Of a DNA stretch of 64,000 bases, positions 861 to 49,420 are shown piece by piece. The notes beneath the pieces were generated by a model, which was given only the letters and a program-made list of their open reading frames with translations, ran no database searches and had not been told where the DNA came from. Numbering within the stretch: the first letter of the stretch is position 1; the number at the start of each line of letters is the position of its first letter. Source of the stretch: Acidobacteriaceae bacterium (lineage in GTDB: Bacteria > Acidobacteriota > Terriglobia > Terriglobales > Acidobacteriaceae); assembly GCA_003134655.1 (NCBI GenBank), contig PLBY01000155.1, positions 74,358-138,357 on the forward strand, written 5' to 3'. A program made the position numbers and the translations under genes.

Positions 861-1459
861 CGATGAGGACGATGACTGCGAATTCCAGCGGACACAACCA
901 GCCGCCCTCTAAGTTCGTGCGCTGGTGCAAGTTCAACTTCGTCGGCGGAATTGGTATCGGTGTGCAGTTCGCCGCACTCTTCCTGGTCAAAAGCGTGCTG
1001 CACTTCAACTACCTCGCCGCCACCGCCATTGCAGTGGAAGCCGCGGTGGTCCACAATTTCGTCTGGCACGAACAGTTCACCTGGGTCGACAGAACAAGGT
1101 CGGACGGAGTGCAACCGTCGTTGCGCACGGTGCCCCCGCATTCCTCGCGGGCTGAACGGTCTACTGAGAGACGCGGTTTTGGGTGGCGCAGCGCTTTTAG
1201 CGCTGCGATCAAGCCATTCTTCTCTTTCAGGGCTTTAGCCCCCGGGGCACCTCGAAGTCGATACTTCCAGAGTTTCCGGCGGCTCCTGCGCTTCAATCTC
1301 ACCAACGGCGCCGTTTCCATCCTCGGAAACCTCGCGCTGATGAAAGTGATGGTCGGCCAGGGCCACATGAACTACCTGCTCGCCAACGCGATTGCCATCA
1401 CGCTATGCTCGCTGGCAAATTTCCTGGTGAGCGAAACCTGGGTGTTTGAACAAGAGTGA
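857..1459 (+). CDS. GtrA-like membrane protein with in-frame repeat insertion
   Basis: GtrA-family proteins have four membrane helices and are thought to flip polyprenyl-linked sugars or related lipids. The N-terminal half (residues 20-75) and C-terminal half (137-200, with RFNLTNG and NFLVSETWVF) match the family. Between them residues about 80-136 are a polar, Ser/Arg-rich stretch that ordinary GtrA proteins lack and that is encoded by palindromic repeat DNA (1161-1242). Start ATG 857 overlaps the stop of the upstream phosphatidyltransferase (ATGA). The pair probably modifies or exports a cell-envelope lipid or glycan. Confidence 0.8.
   Translation: MTMRTMTANSSGHNQPPSKFVRWCKFNFVGGIGIGVQFAALFLVKSVLHFNYLAATAIAVEAAVVHNFVWHEQFTWVDRTRSDGVQPSLRTVPPHSSRAERSTERRGFGWRSAFSAAIKPFFSFRALAPGAPRSRYFQSFRRLLRFNLTNGAVSILGNLALMKVMVGQGHMNYLLANAIAITLCSLANFLVSETWVFEQE
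1161..1242 (-). repeat. Family A palindromic element inside gtrA
   Basis: On the minus strand it reads GGGGCTAAAGCCC (1242-1230), a spacer, then an inverted repeat CAGCGCTAAAAGCGCTG (1205-1189). This is the same architecture as the elements at 13671 and 14406. The left end (1161-1191) also resembles 56497-56527. It lies in frame in the gtrA coding region. Confidence 0.6.
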
Positions 1460-1609: not shown

Positions 1610-2587
1610 CTAAGCGATCTTCAGCACAACCTTCCCATAATTCTTTCCGTCCTCCAACAGCTTGTACGCTTCGACTGCCCGCTCCAGCGGGAATACCTGC
1701 CCAATCTGCGGAGTCAGCTTGCCCTGCGCGATCCACGCGGAAACCTGTTTCCATGCTGGTTCCATGATCTCGGCTTTCTGCGACAGATAAGTAAGCCACA
1801 GCCCCTGCACGCTGGCCGACTTCGCATACATCGCCCGCAAGTCGAGCTTTGGCTGCTTGCCCGTTGCGGTCCCGTACTGGATGACGCGTCCAAAGTCGCG
1901 CAGGCAGCGCAGACTCTTGGCCGTGTGCTCTCCGCCCAGCATTTCGAAGACGGCGTCGACGCCTTCGCCATGCGTCAGGTTCTTTACGACTTCTTCGTAA
2001 TCGTGCTGCTTGTAGTTGATGCCGTGCTGCAGACCGAGCGCTTTCACCCGCGTCAGTTTCTCATCCGACGATGACGTCCCATACATGTCGACGCCAAGCA
2101 ACTTCCCGATCTGCACGGCTGCAGTCCCCACTCCTCCGGCGACAGCGTGAATCAGTACACGATGCGTCTTTGCGGCAGCGGCAGGTTGCGTCATGCCGGC
2201 CTGCCAGTATCCGAGATACGCGGTGAAGTAGTTAACGGGAAACGCGGCGGCCTGCTCGTCAGTCCACTGGTCGGGAACAGTCCAAATCATGTTGGAGTAC
2301 GCGGCAGTCTTCTCCGCGAACGCCGCCCACTGCGCGTATCCCATCACACGTCGTCCGCTGCTCTCGCCGACTCCGGAGATCTCGACTCCCGCGAATTCGC
2401 GACCCACGACCAGCGGCGGTGCCGGGGTTCCCGGGTAGCCTCCCCGGGTAGTCATCAAGTCGGCAAAATTCATCCCTCCCGCGCGGACGCTCACCAGCGT
2501 TTGGCCGGCCTTCAGCGTGGGTTCGGGAACGTTCTGGATCGCGAGCGCGTCAGGCCCAGACAGGCTGGTGAGAACTAGAGCTTTCAT
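1610..2587 (-). CDS. Zinc-independent MDR oxidoreductase (quinone oxidoreductase / VAT-1-like)
   Basis: Medium-chain dehydrogenase/reductase of 325 aa. The N-terminal GroES-like domain carries GMNFADLMTTRGGYPG, typical of the quinone reductase and VAT-1 branch. The Rossmann fold has the glycine-rich HAVAGGVGTAAVQIGKLLG near residues 145-165. The catalytic zinc ligands of alcohol dehydrogenases are absent, so an NAD(P)H-dependent reduction of quinones or enones is likely. The C-terminal PLERAVEAYKLLEDGKNYGKVVL is typical of the family. Start ATG 2587. It stands alone, convergent with gtrA. Confidence 0.85.
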   Translation of the reverse strand: MKALVLTSLSGPDALAIQNVPEPTLKAGQTLVSVRAGGMNFADLMTTRGGYPGTPAPPLVVGREFAGVEISGVGESSGRRVMGYAQWAAFAEKTAAYSNMIWTVPDQWTDEQAAAFPVNYFTAYLGYWQAGMTQPAAAAKTHRVLIHAVAGGVGTAAVQIGKLLGVDMYGTSSSDEKLTRVKALGLQHGINYKQHDYEEVVKNLTHGEGVDAVFEMLGGEHTAKSLRCLRDFGRVIQYGTATGKQPKLDLRAMYAKSASVQGLWLTYLSQKAEIMEPAWKQVSAWIAQGKLTPQIGQVFPLERAVEAYKLLEDGKNYGKVVLKIA

Positions 2588-13670: not shown

Positions 13671-13735
13671 CTCAGGGGCTAAAGCCCGCACTCATTACAC
13701 GGCTAACGCGGCCCTGAAGGGCCGCTCTTCCACGG
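13671..13735 (+). repeat. Family A palindromic element, intergenic copy
   Basis: CAGGGGCTAAAGCCC (13673-13687), an 18-nt spacer, then the 30-nt block 13706-13735 containing GCGGCCCTGAAGGGCCGC and ending CTCTTCCACGG. The block is 29/30 identical to 14440-14469 inside ispE. It lies about 100 bp before the ispE start. Confidence 0.8.
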
Positions 13736-13832
13736 TCGTGCATGCGTGTGTAGTCTTTCCGCAACGTCTGAGAGTGTGGTCTTCCCAATTCACAAGCGCA
13801 AACCTCGATCGAGACTTTACAATCATCCGTCC

Positions 13833-15005
13833 ATGACTGTGACGGTGCGATCGTTCGCGAAGATTAATCTCGGGCTGCGGATTGGCGCGGCGCGGGAGGA
13901 TGGGTTTCATGAGCTGCTGACCGTGTATCAGACGATCGGGTTGCATGATGTGATTCGGGTCAGCGTCGGACGCGGGAGTGGGATTGAGATTCAGTGTGCC
14001 GATCCGCGGGTGCCGAAGGACGAATCGAATACTTGCTTTCGCATCGTGGAGAGGGCCATGCGGGCCTTGCGCGCCAAGGGACGTGTGGTCATCGAGATTG
14101 AGAAGCGGTTGCCGGTGCAGGGCGGACTGGGCGGGGCTTCGTCGAATGCCGTGGCTTGTCTGCTCGGTCTGGAGCGGGCGCTGAAGAAGAGTCTGCCGGC
14201 TGCCGACAGGTTGCGGATCGCGGCGGAGGTTGGATCGGATCTGCCCTTGTTTCTGGTGGGTGGGACCGTGCTTGGGGTGGGGCGGGGGGAACAGGTGTAT
14301 CCGCTGCCGGAGTTGCCGGCGGTGGCGTGTGTGGTGGTTACTCCGACAGTCGGCGTTTCGACTCCGAAGGCGTTCGCGGATTGGGACCGGTTGAGCGGTG
14401 ACAAACAGGGGCTAAAGCCCAGGCTTTTGGAGGGCGTTGACGCGGCCCTGAAGGTCCGCTCTTCCACGGCGATGCCGGCAGGCTTGGTGCCCTCCGGCGG
14501 CGAACCCGCCGAGCTTCGCTCGGCCCAGCCGGGTCAAAGACCCGGCTCCACACAAAGTTGGACGGGCGAAAGCGCGGGTCCCTACACGAGCAACTCCCGC
14601 GCGAGCAGTGCGGGGAAATTGACGGCGTCTACGGGCTCCGATAGAATGAATGAGCTTGGTCGCGGGTTGTCGGCGTGGCTGAGTGAGATGTACTCCGGTG
14701 CTCCTTTTGGAAGGGGCCGGGCCGAGAATCCGCTTCTCGCGCTTGTCCGGGCCGGGATCAAGAACGACTTCGAAGAGGTCGTCTTTCCTGAATATCCCGA
14801 GCTGAGTAGTGGAAAGCGTGCGCTTTTGCGCGCGGGCGCGAAATATGCGTCGTTGTCGGGCTCTGGCTCGACGCTGTACGGGCTGTTTGCCTCTCGCGAG
14901 GCGGCTGTGCAGGCCGTGGCCAGGATGCGGAAGCAGGGCTGGGCGGCGCGGGCGACGGCGACGCTGCCGCGACGGGCTTACTGGAAGCGGGTCGTGGCGA
15001 GGTAG
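13833..15005 (+). CDS. ispE: 4-diphosphocytidyl-2-C-methyl-D-erythritol kinase with large in-frame insertion
   Basis: GHMP kinase phosphorylating CDP-ME in the MEP pathway. SFAKINLGLRIG is the N-terminal signature, PVQGGLGGASSNAVACL is the ATP loop, GSDLPLFLVGGTVLGVGRG and LSGSGSTLYGLF complete the family pattern. The protein is 390 aa against the usual 285-310. The surplus is residues about 190-269, low-complexity sequence encoded by two or three repeat elements (14406-14590), in the surface region before MNELGRGL. All catalytic motifs are intact, so the enzyme is probably active. Start ATG 13833. It is the first gene before tRNA-Gln and prs. Confidence 0.92.
   Translation: MTVTVRSFAKINLGLRIGAAREDGFHELLTVYQTIGLHDVIRVSVGRGSGIEIQCADPRVPKDESNTCFRIVERAMRALRAKGRVVIEIEKRLPVQGGLGGASSNAVACLLGLERALKKSLPAADRLRIAAEVGSDLPLFLVGGTVLGVGRGEQVYPLPELPAVACVVVTPTVGVSTPKAFADWDRLSGDKQGLKPRLLEGVDAALKVRSSTAMPAGLVPSGGEPAELRSAQPGQRPGSTQSWTGESAGPYTSNSRASSAGKLTASTGSDRMNELGRGLSAWLSEMYSGAPFGRGRAENPLLALVRAGIKNDFEEVVFPEYPELSSGKRALLRAGAKYASLSGSGSTLYGLFASREAAVQAVARMRKQGWAARATATLPRRAYWKRVVAR
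14406..14469 (+). repeat. Family A element in frame inside ispE
   Basis: CAGGGGCTAAAGCCC (14406-14420) is identical to 13673-13687. After a 19-nt spacer, 14440-14469 matches 13706-13735 at 29 of 30 positions. Confidence 0.85.
14508..14554 (+). repeat. Family C element in frame inside ispE
   Basis: GCCGAGCTTCGCTCGGC forms a first hairpin and CCGGGTCAAAGACCCGG a second, followed by CTCCACACA. The same two hairpins occur at 21885-21930 between the sigma and anti-sigma genes. Confidence 0.85.
14560..14590 (+). repeat. Degenerate family B element inside ispE
   Basis: GGACGGGCGAAAGCGCGGGT then CCCTACA resembles the GACGGGCG...CCCGTCCCCACA elements at 15042 and 29824. Confidence 0.45.
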
Positions 15006-15068: not shown

Positions 15069-15090
15069 AATCTGTGGAGGTCGGCGAATT

Positions 15091-15180
15091 TTTGATTGTT
15101 GATTTTTGATTGTTGATTGAAAATCTAACTGTGCCCCGGCTAGGGGTTCAATCGACAATCAACAATCAGGCAATCAACAA
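15091..15180. repeat. Heptamer hairpin, GATTGTT family
   Basis: The left arm has GATTGTT, GATTTTT, GATTGTT, GATTGAA units; the right arm has the complementary CAATCGA, CAATCAA, CAATCAG order. Together they form a long imperfect hairpin ending 8 nt before tRNA-Gln. Other copies are at 24252, 48521 and 61568. Confidence 0.75.
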
Positions 15181-21884: not shown

Positions 21885-21930
21885 GCCGAGCTGCGCTCGG
21901 CGACCGGGTCAAAGACCCGGTCCCACATAA
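21885..21930 (+). repeat. Family C element between sigma and anti-sigma genes
   Basis: GCCGAGCTGCGCTCGGC and CCGGGTCAAAGACCCGG hairpins followed by TCCCACATAA. The two stems match 14508-14554 within ispE. Confidence 0.85.
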
Positions 21931-22896: not shown

Positions 22897-22943
22897 GGAA
22901 TCAAGGAAGAATAGCGTCGGCGTTTTGCCGGCTTTCGCGGTGC

Positions 22944-22990
22944 GCGGGCGAGACGCCCCCGCGACAGCCGCCGGGACGGCGGCGCTACAA
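22944..22990 (+). repeat. Family D element
   Basis: GCGGGCGAGACGCCCCCGCG then ACAGCCGCCGGGACGGCGGC and GCTACAA. The same order of two hairpins ending in GCGCTAC occurs at 41136-41182. Confidence 0.75.
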
Positions 22991-28508: not shown

Positions 28509-30758
28509 ATGCTCGAACTCTCCACGCCCGTCCAATATGTGAAGGGCGTTGGTCCGCGCATTGGGGAAGTTCTGGCCGCAAAGGGGATTCACACCGTCGG
28601 CGACCTGCTCCATTATCTGCCATTTCGCTATGAGGACCGGCTGAACCCGCGGGGGATTTCCGAACTGCGTCCCGGCGAAATGGCCACAGTCGTCGGCGAA
28701 GTGCGCAATTCGGGGCTGTTCCGCACGCGGAAGATGCCGATTTTTCAGCTGACCGTTGGACAGGGGCGGGCCCGCCTGCGCTGTCTTTTTTTCAATGCCA
28801 CTTACTTACAGGACAAGTTCACGCCCGGGCAGATGATCGCGCTCTACGGCAAGGTGGAAGAAGATGAACGCAGCCGTGAATTGCAGATCATTCAGCCGCA
28901 GTTCGAGATCCTGGGGGACCCCACCGACTCGGGCGAGAACGGGGCGGAAAAGAAGGCTGCCGAGTCGCTGGAGATTGGGCGCATCGTTCCCATCTACGAG
29001 GCGATTGGACGGCTGACGCCGCGCTGGTTCCGGAAAGCGATTCGCACCGCGCTCGACAATCTCACGCCGGACTTGCCGGATCCGATTCCTGCTGCCGTGC
29101 GCGCGCATCTCGGCCTGATTTCTCCGCGTGCGGCGCTGTGGAACGTGCACTGGCCGGAGCCGGGCGAAAGCTTCGAAGCCTTGCAGTCTTCGCGTACGCC
29201 GGCGCATATCCGGATGATCTTCGACGAGTTGTTCTTCGTGGAACTGGGGCTGGAGTTGAAGCGGCGCCAGCAGAAGGCGCAGACCGGAATCGCGTTTGGG
29301 CTGGACGACCGGGTGCGGGCGGCGATCAAGAAGATTTTGCCGTTTCATCCCACGGCGGCGCAGAAGCGGGTGCTGAAGGAGATTGCGGCCGACATGGAGA
29401 AGCCTTATCCCATGCGGCGTTTGCTGCAGGGCGACGTGGGATCAGGTAAGACGATAGTGGGCTTCGAGGCGGCCATCATCGCGATTGAGAACGGCTGCCA
29501 GGTAGCTCTGATGGCGCCGACTGAGATTCTGGCGCAACAGCATTATTTTTCGGCGCGGCGAATTCTGGAGAATGCAGGGTACCGCATTGTGCTGCTGACC
29601 GGATCGCTGGAAGCGGACCGCAAGCGGGAGGTGCGGCGGCATATCGCGCAGGGGAACGCACAGTTGGTGATTGGGACGCATGCGCTGCTGGAAGAGAAAG
29701 TCGAGTTTGCCAAGCTGGGGCTGGTCATCGTGGATGAGCAGCATCGGTTTGGCGTGTTGCAGCGGTTGAAGTTGATGAGGAAGTCGGGAGATGTTGAGGA
29801 AACCAGCCGAGCTACGCTCGGCGGGACGGGCGAAGGCGCCCGTCCCCACACAGATGCCCGTCCCCACATAAACTCTGCACCCCACATAGTCACTTCTACA
29901 CCTGCTGAGCCCGACGTTCTTGTCATGACCGCGACGCCCATTCCGCGGACGCTGGCGCTTACTCTTTACGGCGATCTTGATCTGAGCGTGCTCGATGAGA
30001 TGCCGCCGGGGCGCACGCCGATCGTCACTCGCTGCGGTTCCGACGACGAATCGCCGAAAGTGTGGGAGTTTGTTCGCAAGCAGGTGACGGCCGGACATCA
30101 GGTTTATGTGGTGTATCCGGTGATCGCCGAGAATGAAGAGAGCGAACTCAAAGCGGCGATCAAGATGTACCGCGAGCTGAGCGGCAAGATCTTTGCCGAT
30201 TTGAAAGTGGGGCTTCTGCATGGCCGCTTGGATGCTGAACTGAAAGAGCAGGTCATGCGCATGTTTCAGCGCGGTGAGTTGCAGATTCTGGTCGCGACGA
30301 CCGTCATCGAAGTCGGCGTGGATGTGCCTAACGCGACCGTGATGGTGATTGAGCACGCTGAGCGTTTTGGCCTGGCGCAATTGCACCAGTTGCGAGGGCG
30401 CATCGGCCGCGGTGCGGCGAAGTCGTATTGCATATTGATGACGGGAGGGAAAGTCAGCGAAGAAGGTCAACGCCGCCTAGACGCGATGGTGCAGACCAAC
30501 GACGGCTTCAAGATCGCTGAACTCGATCTCGAACTGCGCGGGCCGGGCGAATTTTTCGGCACGCGCCAGGCGGGGACGCCGAGTTTCCGAGTCGCCAACA
30601 TCATCCGGGATGCGCAATTGCTGGAGGCGGCCAAGCACGAAGCGGCAGCCGTTATTGCCGGACCGAACGCGGAGATCTCTGCCGAAGAAATCAGCCGCGC
30701 GCTGGTGCACATGCGGGCGCGCTGGCAGCACACGTATGGATTGGTTGAAGTCGGCTAG
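28509..30758 (+). CDS. recG: ATP-dependent DNA helicase RecG with in-frame insertion
   Basis: Branch-migration helicase for stalled forks. The N-terminal wedge/OB region is followed by Walker A GDVGSGKTIVGFEAA, motif II DEQHRFGV, motif III TATPIPRTLALTLYGDLD, and motifs V-VI IEVGVDVPNATVM and HQLRGRIGRG. Residues about 428-469 (GTGEGARPHTDARPH region) between DEQH and TATPIPR are extra, of low complexity and encoded by palindromic repeats (29805-29870). Otherwise length and motifs are normal (749 aa). Start ATG 28509. Confidence 0.95.
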   Translation: MLELSTPVQYVKGVGPRIGEVLAAKGIHTVGDLLHYLPFRYEDRLNPRGISELRPGEMATVVGEVRNSGLFRTRKMPIFQLTVGQGRARLRCLFFNATYLQDKFTPGQMIALYGKVEEDERSRELQIIQPQFEILGDPTDSGENGAEKKAAESLEIGRIVPIYEAIGRLTPRWFRKAIRTALDNLTPDLPDPIPAAVRAHLGLISPRAALWNVHWPEPGESFEALQSSRTPAHIRMIFDELFFVELGLELKRRQQKAQTGIAFGLDDRVRAAIKKILPFHPTAAQKRVLKEIAADMEKPYPMRRLLQGDVGSGKTIVGFEAAIIAIENGCQVALMAPTEILAQQHYFSARRILENAGYRIVLLTGSLEADRKREVRRHIAQGNAQLVIGTHALLEEKVEFAKLGLVIVDEQHRFGVLQRLKLMRKSGDVEETSRATLGGTGEGARPHTDARPHINSAPHIVTSTPAEPDVLVMTATPIPRTLALTLYGDLDLSVLDEMPPGRTPIVTRCGSDDESPKVWEFVRKQVTAGHQVYVVYPVIAENEESELKAAIKMYRELSGKIFADLKVGLLHGRLDAELKEQVMRMFQRGELQILVATTVIEVGVDVPNATVMVIEHAERFGLAQLHQLRGRIGRGAAKSYCILMTGGKVSEEGQRRLDAMVQTNDGFKIAELDLELRGPGEFFGTRQAGTPSFRVANIIRDAQLLEAAKHEAAAVIAGPNAEISAEEISRALVHMRARWQHTYGLVEVG
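29805..29870 (+). repeat. Family C/B repeats in frame inside recG
   Basis: GCCGAGCTACGCTCGGC (family C first hairpin) is followed by GGGACGGGCGAAGGCGCCCG, TCCCCACA and a second partial GCCCGTCCCCACATA (family B). The insertion lies between helicase motifs II and III. Confidence 0.75.
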
Positions 30759-37624: not shown

Positions 37625-39133
37625 CTAAGACGCGATTCGTTCGAGCGCACCTGCGATGACCGGATCCTGGTCGGCAAACACGGTGCGCAAATCCAGCAGG
37701 ACTCTTCCTTGTTCCACACGGGCAATGATTGCCGGATCGGACGCGCGCAGACGGGCGGAGAACTCGTCGGCGCTGAGGCCCTCGCAACTCAAAGCCAGCA
37801 GGCGAGTCGGCAGGACTGATGAGGGCGCGGCGCCGCCGCCAATGACTGATTCACCGTTGGTAATCTCGATGCTGAGTTTCGACGACCGGACGTGTGCCGA
37901 GAGGGAGTCGGCGCGTTTGCCGATTTCCTCTTTGGTCAGGCGCATCATCTTCAATGTGGGAATGGCGTCGTGGTCGCGCTTCACATAGGCGAGCAGCGTA
38001 GCCTCGAGCGCGGCGTAGGTGAGTTTGTCCACGCGGAGCGCGCGGAACAACGAGTTCGATCGCATGCGGGCGACCAGATCGGCGCGACCGCTGATCAATC
38101 CGGCTTGCGGGCCGCCCAGCAACTTGTCGCCGCTGTAGGTGACGATGTCGACGCCGGCGCGCAAGCTGTCGAGCACGCTGGGTTCGCCGCTGATGCCGAA
38201 GTTCTGCAAGTCGACGAGCGCGCCGCTGCCGAGATCTTCCATCAATGGGAGGCCACGCTTTTGGGCGAGAGCAACCAGTTCCGCTGTGGATGCCTGCTCG
38301 GTAAAGCCGGTAATTTCGAAATTCGAGCGGTGCACGCGCAGCAGGAGCCGAGTGCGATCAGTAATCGCTTTTTCGTAGTCAGTGACGCGCGTGCGATTGG
38401 TGGTGCCGACCTCACGCAGCGTTGCGCCCGACTTCGCCATGACGTCTGGAATGCGGAAGGAGCCACCGATCTCGACTAACTCGCCGCGTGAGACGATGAC
38501 TTCGCCGCCTTCGGCCAGGGTGTTGAGCGCCAGCAGGACTGCGGCCGCGTTGTTGTTTACGACGATGGTCGAGACACTGCTCGCAGCTTCCGCCGGGCTT
38601 TGCCTCTTCGGCTCGCTGCTCTCGCTCAGGGCTGGCTCCGGCTGGACGGCCGAGGCGGCCGTCCCCACATGAGCTGATATCGCGCCGTCACTGAGTAGAC
38701 TGCGGAAGAGGCGATCTACGTGGGTATCCCGCTTGCCGCGCTCGCCCGCGTCGATGTCGAACTCGAGATTGGAGAAGCGTCCGGCGGTTTCGCGGATGTG
38801 CGCCAGGGCGGACTTTGCCAGCGGGGCGCGGCCCAGGTTCGTATGCAGGATGACCCCGGTTGCGTTGATCACCGGGCGCAGGGAATGTCCGAGTGCCTGA
38901 CGCAGCTGTCCTTCGATTGCAGATGCGATTCCCGTAAGGGCCAGTTGCAGCGCTGACGAAGTCAGCAAGCCGGAAGCAATTTCACGCCGCAAGCGAGCGA
39001 CCACGGCGCGCGCAGCGTCGGTGACCGGCGCAATTCCGTGGGCGGCTGCGAGAGTTTCTACGCCGGGTATCCGCAGAACTTCGTCGACCGACGGCAGTTC
39101 GCGAAAAAGCTCCGATTTCGCCGTGGTTTTCAT
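37625..39133 (-). CDS. selA: L-seryl-tRNA(Sec) selenium transferase with in-frame insertion
   Basis: PLP enzyme converting seryl-tRNA(Sec) to selenocysteinyl-tRNA. INATGVILHTNLGRAPL, VVNNNAAAVLLAL and the PLP-lysine motif SGDKLLGGPQAG (K337) are present. Residues about 149-188 between the small-subdomain helix and VVNNN are extra and are encoded by repeat DNA at 38644-38676 and flanks. ATG 39133 gives 502 aa against 460-470 usual. The genome presumably uses selenocysteine; selB, selC and selD are not in this window. Confidence 0.94.
   Translation of the reverse strand: MKTTAKSELFRELPSVDEVLRIPGVETLAAAHGIAPVTDAARAVVARLRREIASGLLTSSALQLALTGIASAIEGQLRQALGHSLRPVINATGVILHTNLGRAPLAKSALAHIRETAGRFSNLEFDIDAGERGKRDTHVDRLFRSLLSDGAISAHVGTAASAVQPEPALSESSEPKRQSPAEAASSVSTIVVNNNAAAVLLALNTLAEGGEVIVSRGELVEIGGSFRIPDVMAKSGATLREVGTTNRTRVTDYEKAITDRTRLLLRVHRSNFEITGFTEQASTAELVALAQKRGLPLMEDLGSGALVDLQNFGISGEPSVLDSLRAGVDIVTYSGDKLLGGPQAGLISGRADLVARMRSNSLFRALRVDKLTYAALEATLLAYVKRDHDAIPTLKMMRLTKEEIGKRADSLSAHVRSSKLSIEITNGESVIGGGAAPSSVLPTRLLALSCEGLSADEFSARLRASDPAIIARVEQGRVLLDLRTVFADQDPVIAGALERIAS
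38644..38676 (+). repeat. Family B element, antisense inside selA
   Basis: GGACGGCCGAGGCGGCCGTC followed by CCCACATGAGCTG, on the plus strand while selA is on the minus strand. Same hairpin-then-CCCCACA layout as at 15042 and 29824. Confidence 0.7.
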
Positions 39134-39178
39134 CCCCGGATTATCCCATGAAAACTGCGCCACGCACTCCTCGCGGAG

Positions 39179-41110: not shown

Positions 41111-41135
41111 GGCGGGTGTGTGAGATCTCGGCTCC

Positions 41136-41182
41136 GCGGGCGAGACGCCCCCGGTACAGCCGGCAGGATGCCGGCGCTACTT
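41136..41182 (+). repeat. Family D element
   Basis: GCGGGCGAGACGCCCCCGGT, then ACAGCCGGCAGGATGCCGGC and GCTACTT. Matches 22944-22990 in the order and ends of the two hairpins. Confidence 0.75.
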
Positions 41183-41355: not shown

Positions 41356-43839
41356 CTAGTGGGGCTTCTGATCCTGCTTCTTCTGCTCGTCTTGCTTTTT
41401 CTTCTCCTCGGGAGTAAGCGGACGAGGCTGAGGCTGTGCCGGGTGCGCTTGCGGAGGCGGCGTATGCTGCGGTGGTTGCGGTTTTGCGTTCGGTTGAGCC
41501 GCAGGCGGACGATCATTGCGCGCGGGTGGTTCAGCCGGACGATTGTTCGCCGGCGGCTGATTGGGCTGCGGACGATTGGGCTCGGGCCGGTTGTTGGGCT
41601 GCGCCGCAGGAGGATGATCATTCCGTGCCGGTGGTTCAGCCGGACGATTATTCGCCGGTGGATTCGGCTGTGGCCGATTCGGTTCGGGCCGGTTGTTGGG
41701 TTGCGGCTGACTCGGCTGGGGTTGAGATGGTTCCGGCCGGTTGTTGGGTTGAGCCGCAGCCGGATGGTCGTTTTTCGCCGGTGGTTCAGCCGGACGATTG
41801 TTCGCCGGTGGCTGATTGGGCTGCGGACGGTTCGGCTCGGGCCGGTTGTTGGGCTGAGGCTGACTCGGCTGGGGTTGAGATGGTTCCGGCCGGTTGTTGG
41901 GTTGCGGCGCAGCCGGATGGTCGTTCTTCGCCGGTGGTTCAGTCGGACGATTATTCGCCGGTGGCTGATTCGGCTGGGGACGGTTCGGCTCGGGCCGGTT
42001 GTTGGGCTGAGGCTGACTCGGCTGCGGCTGCGGCTGTTCCGGCCGGTTGTTGGGTTGCGGCGCAGCCGGGTGGTCGTTCTTCGCCGGCGGTTCAAGGGGT
42101 CGATTGTTCGCGGGTGGCTGATTATTCGGCACGGGACGATTCGGTTGTGCAGGAGTTGCTCCCGGCCGCCCGTTCGCAGCCGGCGGAGTGCCCGGCCGGT
42201 TCGCCGGTTGATTCGCGGGCGCGCTTGCCGGTTGGTTCACGGGCCGACCCATGGTCGGTGTCGCGGGTTTTCCCGGAGGCGCCTGCTTCACCTGAGGCTG
42301 CGCAGCCGGCGTATTCGCGGGACGCAAGCGTGCCAGGTCCTGTCGAGCGATGGGCTGCCCTGGATGGGCCGCCATCACTTGCTGCCGGGCTGCGAAGGAT
42401 ACCGGTGGAGGCGGCGCAGCTGCCTTGGCAACCACTGCGCGATTCGCCACGGCAGCCGGAGGCGCTGCCACGCGGTTCGCCGTGTTGGCATGGACTCCCA
42501 GCACGCTGTTGGAAGTGGGTGCGACAACGGCCCTGGCATTCACCGGGGCCGCGGCAATCTCCCGGGCGTTCACCCGCACGGCCACGTGGCTAACGGGCTG
42601 TCCGCTGCTGAAAGCCTTTTGCGGAACTGCCGTCACCGCACCCGAGACATTCTTATTCACATAAGTGACATTGTTGATGACGGTCGTCTTGTTGACGATC
42701 GTGGTGTTATAGACATTCGTCACCTGCGTGACATTCACGGTCGTGTTGCTGACGTTGACGCGATTGACGTACCCGCGGCTTACCGGATACGACGGCACAT
42801 AGACTTCGCGCGGACCCAAGGGGAACCATCCCATGTTGCCCGCGAAACCGCCGCCTCCGCCTACGAATACGACGAGGGCAGGCGCATAAACCGGCCGCAC
42901 TTCCGCCGGTCCCGGCACCCAACCCCAGCGGCCTCGAATCGAGAGCCAGCGGCCGTAATGAAAGGGAGCGTAACCCCACGGTTCGTCGTCGACCCATGTC
43001 CATCCCCAGGGATCGATCCACGCCCAGTGGCCTTCGCGATACGGAGCCCAGCCCGCGTTAACGCGCGGGTACCAGACGTTGCCGTAGCCCGGATCCGGAT
43101 GCCAGTCGCCGTTGTCGTCCAAGTCCTCATATCCGACGACATCGTGAGAAACGTATCTCGCCGACGGCGAATTCTCGTAGCGGTGGTCCCGAGCATAGGT
43201 CCAGTTGTCGAAGTCATCGGGATCGCCGAGATCCTCCACTTGCGCCCTGAGGCGGTCGGTCCCTTCGAAGGTGCCTCGCTGTCCGCTATGCAGGGTGTAG
43301 CTCTGTCCGTTGCCGGTGGATTCGCCTTCGCCTTCACGAATGCTCACCACGGTGTAAGTTCCATCTTCGCTGGCCTCGACGCGATAGCGACCGGGCTGGA
43401 AGATGGAGAACGCCTGGTTGGGTGTATCGATCTCAAATACATCATCGCGGTCTAAACGGCGGACGCGCACGCTGATCGATCCTGAGCTTAGTTGGATCTG
43501 CGCCGTGCGGTCGTCCAGATTCAGAAAGGAGATGCCGGTGTTGCTGTTCAGGTCGATCACCGCCGCCCCGAGTGACAGTTCGGCGCGAGAGTCCCGGTCG
43601 GACCAGAGCTTGTCGCCCGTAGTCAGGGGCCGGTTTTGCGCGGCTTCCACCCACTCCGACTCGCCCGCCGGCTGAAATGAAACGGAACCTTGCATGTAAC
43701 CGAGACGCGCTACGCGGCTCGGGGGATCATCCTGATCCGGCTGGTCTTGCGCGACTACCCGCTGCACGAGAGCAGCGCTTACCACCGCGATGGCCAGCAC
43801 GGAGATTGTCCGACGCAGGCCCTTCGTAAACTGGTTCAT
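41356..43839 (-). CDS. FecR/DUF6600-type secreted protein with Pro/Asn-rich tandem tail
   Basis: Signal peptide (ISVLAIAVVSAALVQRVVAQ), then a FecR-like domain (VARLGYMQGSVSFQPAG, SGSISVRVR, VSIREGEG), then repeated tryptophan motifs of the WxPxGxW class (NAGWAPYREGHWAWIDPWGW, VDDEPWGYAPFHYGRW, GRWGWVPGPA). A polar Asn/Thr/Val segment follows, then a tail of about 280 residues with 51-residue units of QPPANNRPAEPPAKNDHP type (about four, the third shorter). The tail is probably disordered and cell-wall or matrix exposed. ATG 43839 starts the signal peptide; 27 upstream codons are not credible. Confidence 0.85.
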   Translation of the reverse strand: MNQFTKGLRRTISVLAIAVVSAALVQRVVAQDQPDQDDPPSRVARLGYMQGSVSFQPAGESEWVEAAQNRPLTTGDKLWSDRDSRAELSLGAAVIDLNSNTGISFLNLDDRTAQIQLSSGSISVRVRRLDRDDVFEIDTPNQAFSIFQPGRYRVEASEDGTYTVVSIREGEGESTGNGQSYTLHSGQRGTFEGTDRLRAQVEDLGDPDDFDNWTYARDHRYENSPSARYVSHDVVGYEDLDDNGDWHPDPGYGNVWYPRVNAGWAPYREGHWAWIDPWGWTWVDDEPWGYAPFHYGRWLSIRGRWGWVPGPAEVRPVYAPALVVFVGGGGGFAGNMGWFPLGPREVYVPSYPVSRGYVNRVNVSNTTVNVTQVTNVYNTTIVNKTTVINNVTYVNKNVSGAVTAVPQKAFSSGQPVSHVAVRVNAREIAAAPVNARAVVAPTSNSVLGVHANTANRVAAPPAAVANRAVVAKAAAPPPPVSFAARQQVMAAHPGQPIARQDLARLRPANTPAAQPQVKQAPPGKPATPTMGRPVNQPASAPANQPANRPGTPPAANGRPGATPAQPNRPVPNNQPPANNRPLEPPAKNDHPAAPQPNNRPEQPQPQPSQPQPNNRPEPNRPQPNQPPANNRPTEPPAKNDHPAAPQPNNRPEPSQPQPSQPQPNNRPEPNRPQPNQPPANNRPAEPPAKNDHPAAAQPNNRPEPSQPQPSQPQPNNRPEPNRPQPNPPANNRPAEPPARNDHPPAAQPNNRPEPNRPQPNQPPANNRPAEPPARNDRPPAAQPNAKPQPPQHTPPPQAHPAQPQPRPLTPEEKKKQDEQKKQDQKPH
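41460..42130 (-). repeat. Tandem repeat, 153-bp unit, in the DUF6600 gene
   Basis: About four in-frame units encode PANNRPAEPPAKNDHPAA, PNNRPEPSQPQPSQPQP and NNRPEPNRPQP. The third unit is shorter. Such arrays expand and contract by slippage. Confidence 0.7.
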
Positions 43840-48520: not shown

Positions 48521-48583
48521 GATTTCTGATTGCTGATTGAAAACCGGTTGCGATCAACAATCAGCAATCAACAATCAGAAATA
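48521..48583. repeat. Heptamer hairpin, GATTGTT family
   Basis: GATTTCT, GATTGCT, GATTGAA on the left and the complementary CAACAATCAGCAATCAACAA on the right, between two convergent genes. Confidence 0.75.
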
Positions 48584-49315: not shown

Positions 49316-49420
49316 GAACAAAGCGAAGGCCCCGTGCATCTTGCCGTCGGTATACCAGCTCCCGAAAAGTGCACAGATCCTTCGGCCCGCAAAGAACGAA
49401 GGCCTCAGGATGACAAAGCG
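49316..49420. repeat. Paired family E element
   Basis: TGTCATCCTGAAC...CGAAGG on the left and CAGATCCTTCG...CTCAGGATGACA on the right are inverted copies of the same element core, enclosing 30 nt. Lies between two minus-strand genes. Confidence 0.65.

Follow-up and report, generated by a model that had tools for sequence, protein, structure and literature searches.

REP sequences of the canonical kind have a GT[AG]G foot 0–2 nt from the stem, which one section of PMC6006769 treats as their mark and which is also tabulated in part of PMC2817692. Copies lying in frame within genes have been published. A portion of Di Nocera 2013 (PMC3733652) describes in-frame intragenic REPs in DNA-repair, tRNA-synthetase and tRNA-modification genes, where grouped copies encode tens of residues, and reports differing REPs near the same recB site in two Xanthomonas species. 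Mobile palindromes of another kind, the Rickettsia palindromic elements (RPEs), are about 105–150 bp long; the relevant passages of PMC10969869 and PMC2229807 attribute a conserved encoded peptide to each. Intragenic CGTC repeats of R. conorii are equated with RPE-4/6 in the same portion of PMC3733652, which reports no transposase link for them. As for Acidobacteriota, class 3 TnpA-Y1 genes of Solibacter are adjoined by CnGA-footed hairpins in high copy (a section of PMC6006769), and REPs have been predicted by RepRanger in Granulicella and other Acidobacteriota (a section of PMC12306157). Neither of these two sections mentions intragenic copies in core genes.

Here we describe palindromes found in the window, a 64,000-nt stretch of an acidobacterial metagenome-assembled genome (MAG) that has Candidatus Sulfotelmatobacter (Acidobacteriota) as its relatives. 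We identify these palindromes as REP sequences, that is, GC-rich hairpins with a GTGG or GTAG foot, of families A, B, C2a, C2b and C2c. An initial annotation of the window, made from the sequence, had noted that two intergenic palindromes recur in frame in ispE and had likened them to RPEs. The likeness in kind does not hold, as the elements are GTGG-footed REPs with RAYT transposases. The same annotation knew of no described equivalent in Acidobacteriota, which stands for that phylum in the literature searched; elsewhere in bacteria the equivalent is described, at least in the portion of PMC3733652 cited above.

The likeness to REP/RAYT systems lies in the GT[AG]G foot, the GC-rich hairpin, a RAYT flanked by its own REPs, and a mostly intergenic placement with some copies in frame. 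Unlike in published cases of intragenic REPs, the host is a member of the Acidobacteriota; one loop each in ispE, recG, pheT and mtaB is reused by several families over dozens of species; both orientations are present in some genes; copies are stacked and nested; and ispE has exact empty alleles. With RPEs and their Wolbachia equivalents the elements share the property of being mobile palindromes that lie in frame in conserved protein genes and also between genes. Compared by description, they differ from RPEs in being 20–65-nt hairpins that are read in several frames, have a GTRG foot and are associated with RAYTs. Membership in the RPEs was considered and rejected on this descriptive footing: the in-frame placement is found, but a 100–150-nt element with one conserved peptide per family is not. 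High copy number in an acidobacterial host is common to our hairpins, those of Solibacter class 3 and the Granulicella REPs; the Solibacter foot is CnGA, in contrast to GTGG here. In-frame REPs and in-frame RPEs are already known. As far as our searches show, what is new is that the host belongs to the Acidobacteriota and that, over a genus, a single loop has repeatedly been reused by differing REP families; the open-access literature searched yielded no report of in-frame palindromes in Acidobacteriota.

The ispE insert and its intergenic counterparts

The features of the ispE region and the matching elements between genes are as follows.

13671–13735, plus strand: intergenic family A element, upstream of ispE
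13833–15005, plus strand: ispE (4-diphosphocytidyl-2-C-methyl-D-erythritol kinase), encoding 390 aa and present once in the genome
14391–14618, plus strand: whole ispE insert, 228 nt, in frame between the WDR and LTA codons
14406–14469, plus strand: family A element inside ispE, the CAGGGGCTAAAGCCC hairpin plus GCGGCCCTGAAGGTCCGCTCTTCCACGG
14508–14554, plus strand: family C element inside ispE, GCCGAGCTTCGCTCGGC plus CCGGGTCAAAGACCCGG(CTCCACA)
14560–14586, plus strand: third hairpin of the ispE insert, a degraded REP, GGACGGGCGAAAGCGCGGGTCCCTACA, subfamily C2c-like by a loose pattern
21885–21930, plus strand: intergenic family C element

The window IspE matches the TIGR00154 profile above cut-off, and its GHMP N and C domains (Pfam, residues 71–144 and 305–368) are kept, one on each side of the insert. 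The extra in-frame segment, for which about 80 residues had been claimed, is 228 nt long and amounts to a net gain of 225 nt, or 75 residues, relative to the empty allele, in which a single AAA codon remains.

The recurrence of both intergenic elements in ispE was confirmed. For family A, CAGGGGCTAAAGCCC is exact at 13673–13687 and at 14406–14420, and the second block is the same at 29 of 30 bases (97%) between 13706–13735 and 14440–14469. For family C, both hairpins recur: GCCGAGCTGCGCTCGGC, at 21885–21901, is found with one mismatch at 14508–14524, and CCGGGTCAAAGACCCGGTCCCACA, at 21904–21927, with two mismatches at 14529–14552 (chance expectation 0.00). With up to two mismatches allowed, CAGGGGCTAAAGCCC occurs at three places in the window, where 0.13 are expected by chance and three were reached in 0 of 100 shuffles; the scan for GCCGAGCTGCGCTCGGC gave six places, against a shuffle mean of 1.1 and a largest value of 5. 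In the four element scans of the window, shuffled windows always yielded fewer matches. The 8.05-Mb genome holds 23 exact copies of CAGGGGCTAAAGCCC and none of the reversed-pattern control, and the cores recur both inside and outside genes, where the initial annotation had proposed to count them. The spot at 21885, occupied by a C element in the window, holds other hairpin-like sequence in the relatives G011, G018 and G022, as judged by eye. A known structured RNA was ruled out, the Rfam gathering score being reached in the window by a tRNA only.

Repeats of other kinds are also present in the window. A short AT-rich repeat, TGATTGTTGATT, lies at 15079–15123, 24256, 48513 and 61568 and varies among relatives at 48540, and at 41406–42119 lie five 153-nt direct repeats, one taken as reference and the others 63–92% like it.

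Inside ispE, GCGGCCCTGAAGGTCCGCTCTTCCACGG is a REP hairpin in which CCAC is the GTGG foot on the other strand and one base breaks the stem. The family A copy in the gene has lost its fold (DNA fold z 0.21; the intergenic copy, with −1.87, is itself weak). The family C copy still folds (z −8.09); its translation reads AELRSA-QPGQRPGSTQ. In an AlphaFold2 model of IspE built on a 43-sequence alignment (mean pLDDT 77.9), every one of residues 193–268 has a pLDDT below 50, and this segment is flanked by helices 177–192 and 268–287. Ten-residue block means are at least 82 for residues 1–190 and at least 90 from residue 311 on; residues 271–310 are also low, at 50 to 65. The best structural matches of the model are the IspE crystal structures 4emd and 4dxl, with 1oj4 also in the list, and the loop that takes the insert, between WDR and KLT, sits between two helices of the C-terminal domain. 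Given this pLDDT pattern and the matches to IspE structures, the insert is likely to be a disordered loop outside the conserved fold. It is presumably translated and harmless.

REP hallmarks, RAYT flanks and genome census

REP hairpins often come in pairs, in which A1 accompanies A2 and C1 accompanies C2. The REP sequence of family A is GTGGCGCAGCGCT. The foot was scored on stems only, and GT[AG]G was counted if it lay no more than 8 nt away from the stem on the outside; in A2 the two are 4 nt apart. So defined, it is present in 63 of 71 A2, A2v, B and C2a–c hairpins, compared with about 6–7% at random; by class, the counts are 7/11 for A2, 18/18 for A2v, 13/13 for B, 4/6 for C2a, 15/17 for C2b and 6/6 for C2c. 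By the same 8-nt test the companion hairpins are without a foot (A1, 2/36; C1, 0/7).

The genome has five Y1-transposase matches. Proteins of contigs C114 and C49 (loci L155 and L154) match NF047646 (REP-associated tyrosine transposase) above cut-off. The C114 protein also matches PDB 4er8, TnpA-REP, with an E value of 8e-5; its gene has family C elements on both sides, and relatives of the protein are found in 82 of 101 genomes. Of the 30 RAYT loci ranked best in a longer list, 27 are accompanied by a GTRG hairpin at a distance of up to 500 nt, and such a hairpin is present in 13.6% of random 1-kb windows; the random-window scan found 120 hairpins, and 47 in reversed sequence, such that a single generic hairpin can be chance.

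Flanks that match particular REP families were identified as follows. C2b REPs lie on both sides of the RAYT in L155/L260 and L261–265 and on one side in L266, with inverted copies in L260–264. C2a REPs flank the RAYT on both sides in L273 and L274, and window positions 21902–21926 are, letter for letter, both of the inverted REPs that flank the L274 RAYT of the relative G042. B-type copies in the same direction are found on both RAYT sides in L281 and on one side in L284, and the B-type hairpin in the ispE of L048 is identical to the RAYT flank in L284. No family A element was found flanking a RAYT among the loci scanned, and the five Y1 loci of the window's own genome include no C2a-flanked RAYT, the C2a link coming from G042 and G230. 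The properties expected of a REP family are found here, namely the foot, RAYT flanks of the same family (C2a and C2b; partly for B-type), the RAYT profile, and many, mainly extragenic, copies. To judge from these sequences, the RAYTs would be the enzymes that move the REPs.

Further palindromes were seen near Y1 transposase genes. L151 and L153, on contig C145 of the same genome, contain Y1 transposase genes with GGCACGACTGAAGTCGTGCC hairpins and with long inverted repeats (CAGCCGCGGAGCGGCG...) between. This F hairpin, GGCACGACTGAAGTCGTGCC, has no GTRG foot by eye and is present in PheT inserts of relatives. A 46-nt repeat pair at 22943–22988 and 41135–41180 (87%), the reverse complement of which begins GTAGCGCC, looks like another REP family and is similar to a hairpin near the Y1 gene of contig C137 (L152).

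Across the whole genome we counted 93 exact footed C2b hairpins and 47 exact A2v copies, with 0 for the reversed patterns. Of these 140 copies, 25 lie within called genes and 115 outside, compared with about 87% coding in an 852-kb sample of the genome. This depletion points to selection against in-gene copies. Genes were called with a home-made hexamer gene caller, and short or end-placed calls were not scored as host genes. By our reading, ten of the 25 in-gene copies are separated by 60 codons or more from either end of their gene and lie in nine Pfam-domain genes, which encode RlmN, a peptidyl-arginine deiminase family protein, penicillin amidase, molybdopterin oxidoreductase (two), Dus, a PMT_2-like protein, MtaB, MutY and GtrA. 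The MeaB gene (L368) was left out, as the stretch before its element looks non-coding; the rest of the in-gene copies lie close to a gene end, in short open frames, or where no domain is recognised.

The 852-kb sample consists of the window and four contigs chosen for exact A1 copies, and its element density is therefore biased upward. Strict patterns gave 24 matches in called genes and 63 between genes, with 0 and 0 in the reversed sequence. Loose patterns gave 40 and 88, with 13 and 2 in the reversed control. The looser C1 pattern yields chance matches, 16 of them in the rest of ispE, and matches 11 of 75 reversed inserts. Because of these chance matches, the looser patterns were dropped for counting, and weak copies are uncallable. 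An extrapolation of gene counts from the sample was likewise dropped, since four of its five contigs had been picked for A1, and the census of two subfamilies was used instead.

In-gene elements are read in several frames, and both strands and orientations are used. The proposal that the elements are built to be translated was put to the test and found no support: of the six frames, 4.2 are open in 46 intergenic clusters, 4.1 in shuffles and 3.5 in random intergenic pieces. Thus, with several frames and both strands in use and an openness no better than that of shuffles, no peptide selection is apparent. The family A core hardly occurs beyond the taxonomic family of the window's genome: it is present in 12 of 15 genomes of that family and in 3 of 134 others.

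Variation at the ispE site and in other host genes

The ispE search covered 81 genomes, namely the window's own and 80 relatives; 77 had a match, and the four that did not include the closest relative, G016. Thirty-nine loci were retrieved and 38 used, the distant match L110 being left out. The insert site was read in 85 of 86 loci (L071 left out), corresponding to 75 distinct proteins; the right border of the insert was set by hand in L035 and L037. Six same-genus loci, L045, L046, L050, L052, L054 and L056, are empty and read WD(R/G)-K-LT, with 3 nt in place of the 228 in the window. In L056 (G036) the ispE frame breaks further downstream, perhaps through an assembly error. The alignment of orthologues that the initial annotation had suggested thus bears out its main claim: exact empty sites, with WDR joined directly to K-LT, are found in some same-genus orthologues, the segment is not universal, and the exact flanks of orthologues that do not have the insert indicate that palindromes of a mobile type added an in-frame segment to a gene of an essential type. 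Neither outcome that the annotation had named as refuting it, a conserved segment shared by all orthologues or cores that fail to recur, was observed. What has to be revised is the place given to ispE, which is one of many hosts and a site of turnover.

Strict elements are present in 27 of the 75 distinct IspE inserts, and 18 inserts contain at least two pattern classes. None was found in the other 71,220 nt of ispE coding sequence, in the reversed inserts or in 20x shuffles; in 48 of the 75 sites, no strict element was found. Among the same-genus alleles (n = 42), 19 have strict elements, 8 have 3–9 nt, and 15 have 39–123 nt lacking any; the last may be decayed elements or unrelated linkers. 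In all 85 loci read, the length is a multiple of three and stop-free, a result partly forced in that the site was read within one open frame.

By eye, the insert can be divided into two slots. The first is often occupied by family A or by family B (GTGTGGCGCGGGCG..CGCCCGCGA), and the second by C1 followed by one of three hairpins, CCGGGTC.., GGACAGCC.. or GGACGGGC... Also by eye, C is reversed in L093, which is more distant and outside the same-genus set, and in L025 and L028 a further type, TTCGAC..GCTCAGGGC, lies in frame within hairpin loops. On a quick maximum-likelihood tree of IspE with the insert columns removed, a minimum of 14 presence/absence changes is needed, and the slot states need at least 13 changes in the first slot and at least 26 in the second. 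These counts, for which looser patterns were used, rows L025, L031 and L037 were set by hand and 13 of 72 inner branches were starred, are rough and do not separate gain from loss.

Other genes of the window with an element, or with a site that is occupied in relatives, are as follows.

29806–29850, plus strand: family C element in frame in recG (28509–30758, plus strand), read as SRATLGGTGEGARPHT
38592–38669, plus strand: family C element that contains a nested E-like piece, within selA (37625–39163, minus strand), in frame on the minus strand, loose pattern
1181–1244, minus strand: family A element (A2v + A1) in a GtrA-domain gene (872–1459, plus strand), in frame, opposite strand
2140–2190, no strand assigned: site in an oxidoreductase-like gene (1610–2587, minus strand; named from sequence by eye), no element here, C-type in G011 and G019

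The genes for RecG, PheT and MtaB vary in the same way as ispE and that for SelA does so more thinly; about ten further genes have in-frame elements. RecG was matched in all 61 genomes searched. In the 30 loci retrieved, read by eye, C is forward in 10 and reversed in 10, and 10 have linkers lacking C; some of the reversed-C loci are degraded and one is cut by a contig end, and the C-less L173 has an E-like element. PheT was matched in 57 of 61 genomes, and of the 30 loci retrieved (by eye; L203 and L194 uninformative), 13 have a family A-type second hairpin, several have other hairpins, and others have a short linker. Even in the closest pair of genomes, G000 and G016, the PheT hairpins differ (L186 vs. 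L188). In MtaB (30 loci of 61 genomes, by eye), family A lies on the opposite strand in 8 loci, twice in L232, and is absent from 22. In SelA, aligned for four genomes, the element is present in G000, G016 and G011 and absent in G018. G016 is about 90–93% identical to the window's own genome and has the RecG, SelA and MtaB elements in common with it; no clean element insertion was found in the stretches of these two genomes that were aligned.

Fourteen called genes of the 852-kb sample contain strict elements. In nine the element is internal, and these encode IspE, RecG, PheT, MtaB, MutY, a Xer-type recombinase, LarC, the GtrA-domain protein and the PMT_2-like protein, the last named from a marginal Pfam score. 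A SelR-domain (MsrB-like) gene has a strict element near its N-terminus, and in the remaining four the element is at the 3′ end of the gene, in a YidD tail, or in short open frames. With looser patterns, copies are also recognised in SelA and in a YegS-type kinase. In addition, a dihydrouridine synthase gene on contig C145 (L375:1568–2887) apparently has elements at at least three places, seen in the protein by eye: at the start, from residue 292 onward and at the C-terminus.

Proposed mechanism, alternatives and implications

We think it probable that these are RAYT-spread REPs that land widely, survive in a gene where the frame is kept and the loop is tolerant, and turn over there. RAYTs, which are single-strand HUH enzymes with genes flanked by matching REPs, would spread REPs via single-strand DNA. 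Copies would land widely, and most of those falling in genes would be lost. An in-gene copy would survive if it kept the frame and sat in a tolerant surface loop, to become a translated, probably disordered segment. Across the genus, the ispE loop would have received elements and later ones of other families, some of them stacked and some inside hairpins already present, and in other cases would have been left empty or cut down to short linkers. Whether any one change at the site was a gain or a loss is an inference. No transposition event was seen, and reuse of the same site could also come from REP-to-REP recombination instead of new insertion. The lone clean recent case with a possible target-site duplication is the 25-bp insertion in G011, with CTTCG at both ends; it belongs to another family and is ambiguous.

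That insertion, an E-type element, CCTTCGACTTCGCTCAGGGCAGGCT, lies between genes and was seen on comparing G011 with the window at 49380. The same E-type element is also present within hairpins in the ispE of L025 and L028 and, by pattern, in the Xer-type recombinase gene of the window's genome.

Other origins of the insert can be weighed against RAYT-driven spread. The most serious, which we regard as possible but would not favor, is an old REP cluster in an ancestral ispE, the later variety having arisen by gene conversion or recombination with other REPs and by decay. The slot order, A or B first and C second, is kept in many species (by eye), the partner of a common C1 may be C2a, C2b or C2c, and several short linkers may be remnants. 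A single old cluster is harder to reconcile with empty sites that are clean to the letter and belong to the genus, in a clade where other alleles are filled, with the reversed C of L093 and the two orientations in RecG, and with elements of another type within hairpin loops (L025, L028). It is a good deal less likely that the insert was selected for a function, as an mRNA hairpin, a translational pause or a binding loop. Reuse of the site across the genus and the presence of several RNA-modification and DNA-repair genes among the hosts would fit such a role; however, there is no single peptide, frames and orientations differ, alleles with 0–9 nt exist, and the fold of the in-gene A hairpin has been lost.

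The remaining explanations carry little weight. That the elements are RPE-like or MITE-like, unrelated to RAYTs and mobilised by a DDE transposase, seems improbable given the GTRG foot, the single hairpins of 20–30 nt and the RAYT flanks, although in-frame placement in housekeeping genes does resemble RPEs (as described in part of PMC2229807). The insert might not be translated at all, through ribosome bypass or some other removal. GC-rich mitochondrial byps are bypassed by the ribosome, and GC-rich hairpins lie in frame in many genes here; bypass would not need the multiples of three and the lack of stops seen in all alleles, a count that is partly forced, and we judge it slightly more improbable still. 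That the inserts are assembly artefacts or chimeras is hardly credible: the named genomes are MAGs, and that of the window has 5.2% contamination, but MAGs of different projects agree in the kind of insert and in the codon at which it sits.

Building on RAYT-driven spread, we offer a more speculative proposal, namely that the loops of IspE, PheT, RecG and MtaB might be long-lived REP docking sites, at which a resident REP draws other families and turnover is driven by RAYTs. REPs might enter such a site by insertion into or beside the resident REP or by homologous swapping, a route about which we are equally tentative.

The ispE locus provides dozens of natural alleles of one core gene, some empty and others occupied by various mobile hairpins, and candidate transposases are available. 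It forms a natural series for how mobile DNA reshapes proteins, and two questions can be tested on it: do RAYTs still move REPs, and do mobile palindromes regularly supply new protein segments beyond Rickettsia-like bacteria? It is also a warning that mobile-DNA segments are included when MAG proteins of this sort are modelled as genes and aligned. If the docking proposal is true, a disordered, fast-changing module would be kept in conserved enzymes across the genus, possibly affecting their activity or interaction.
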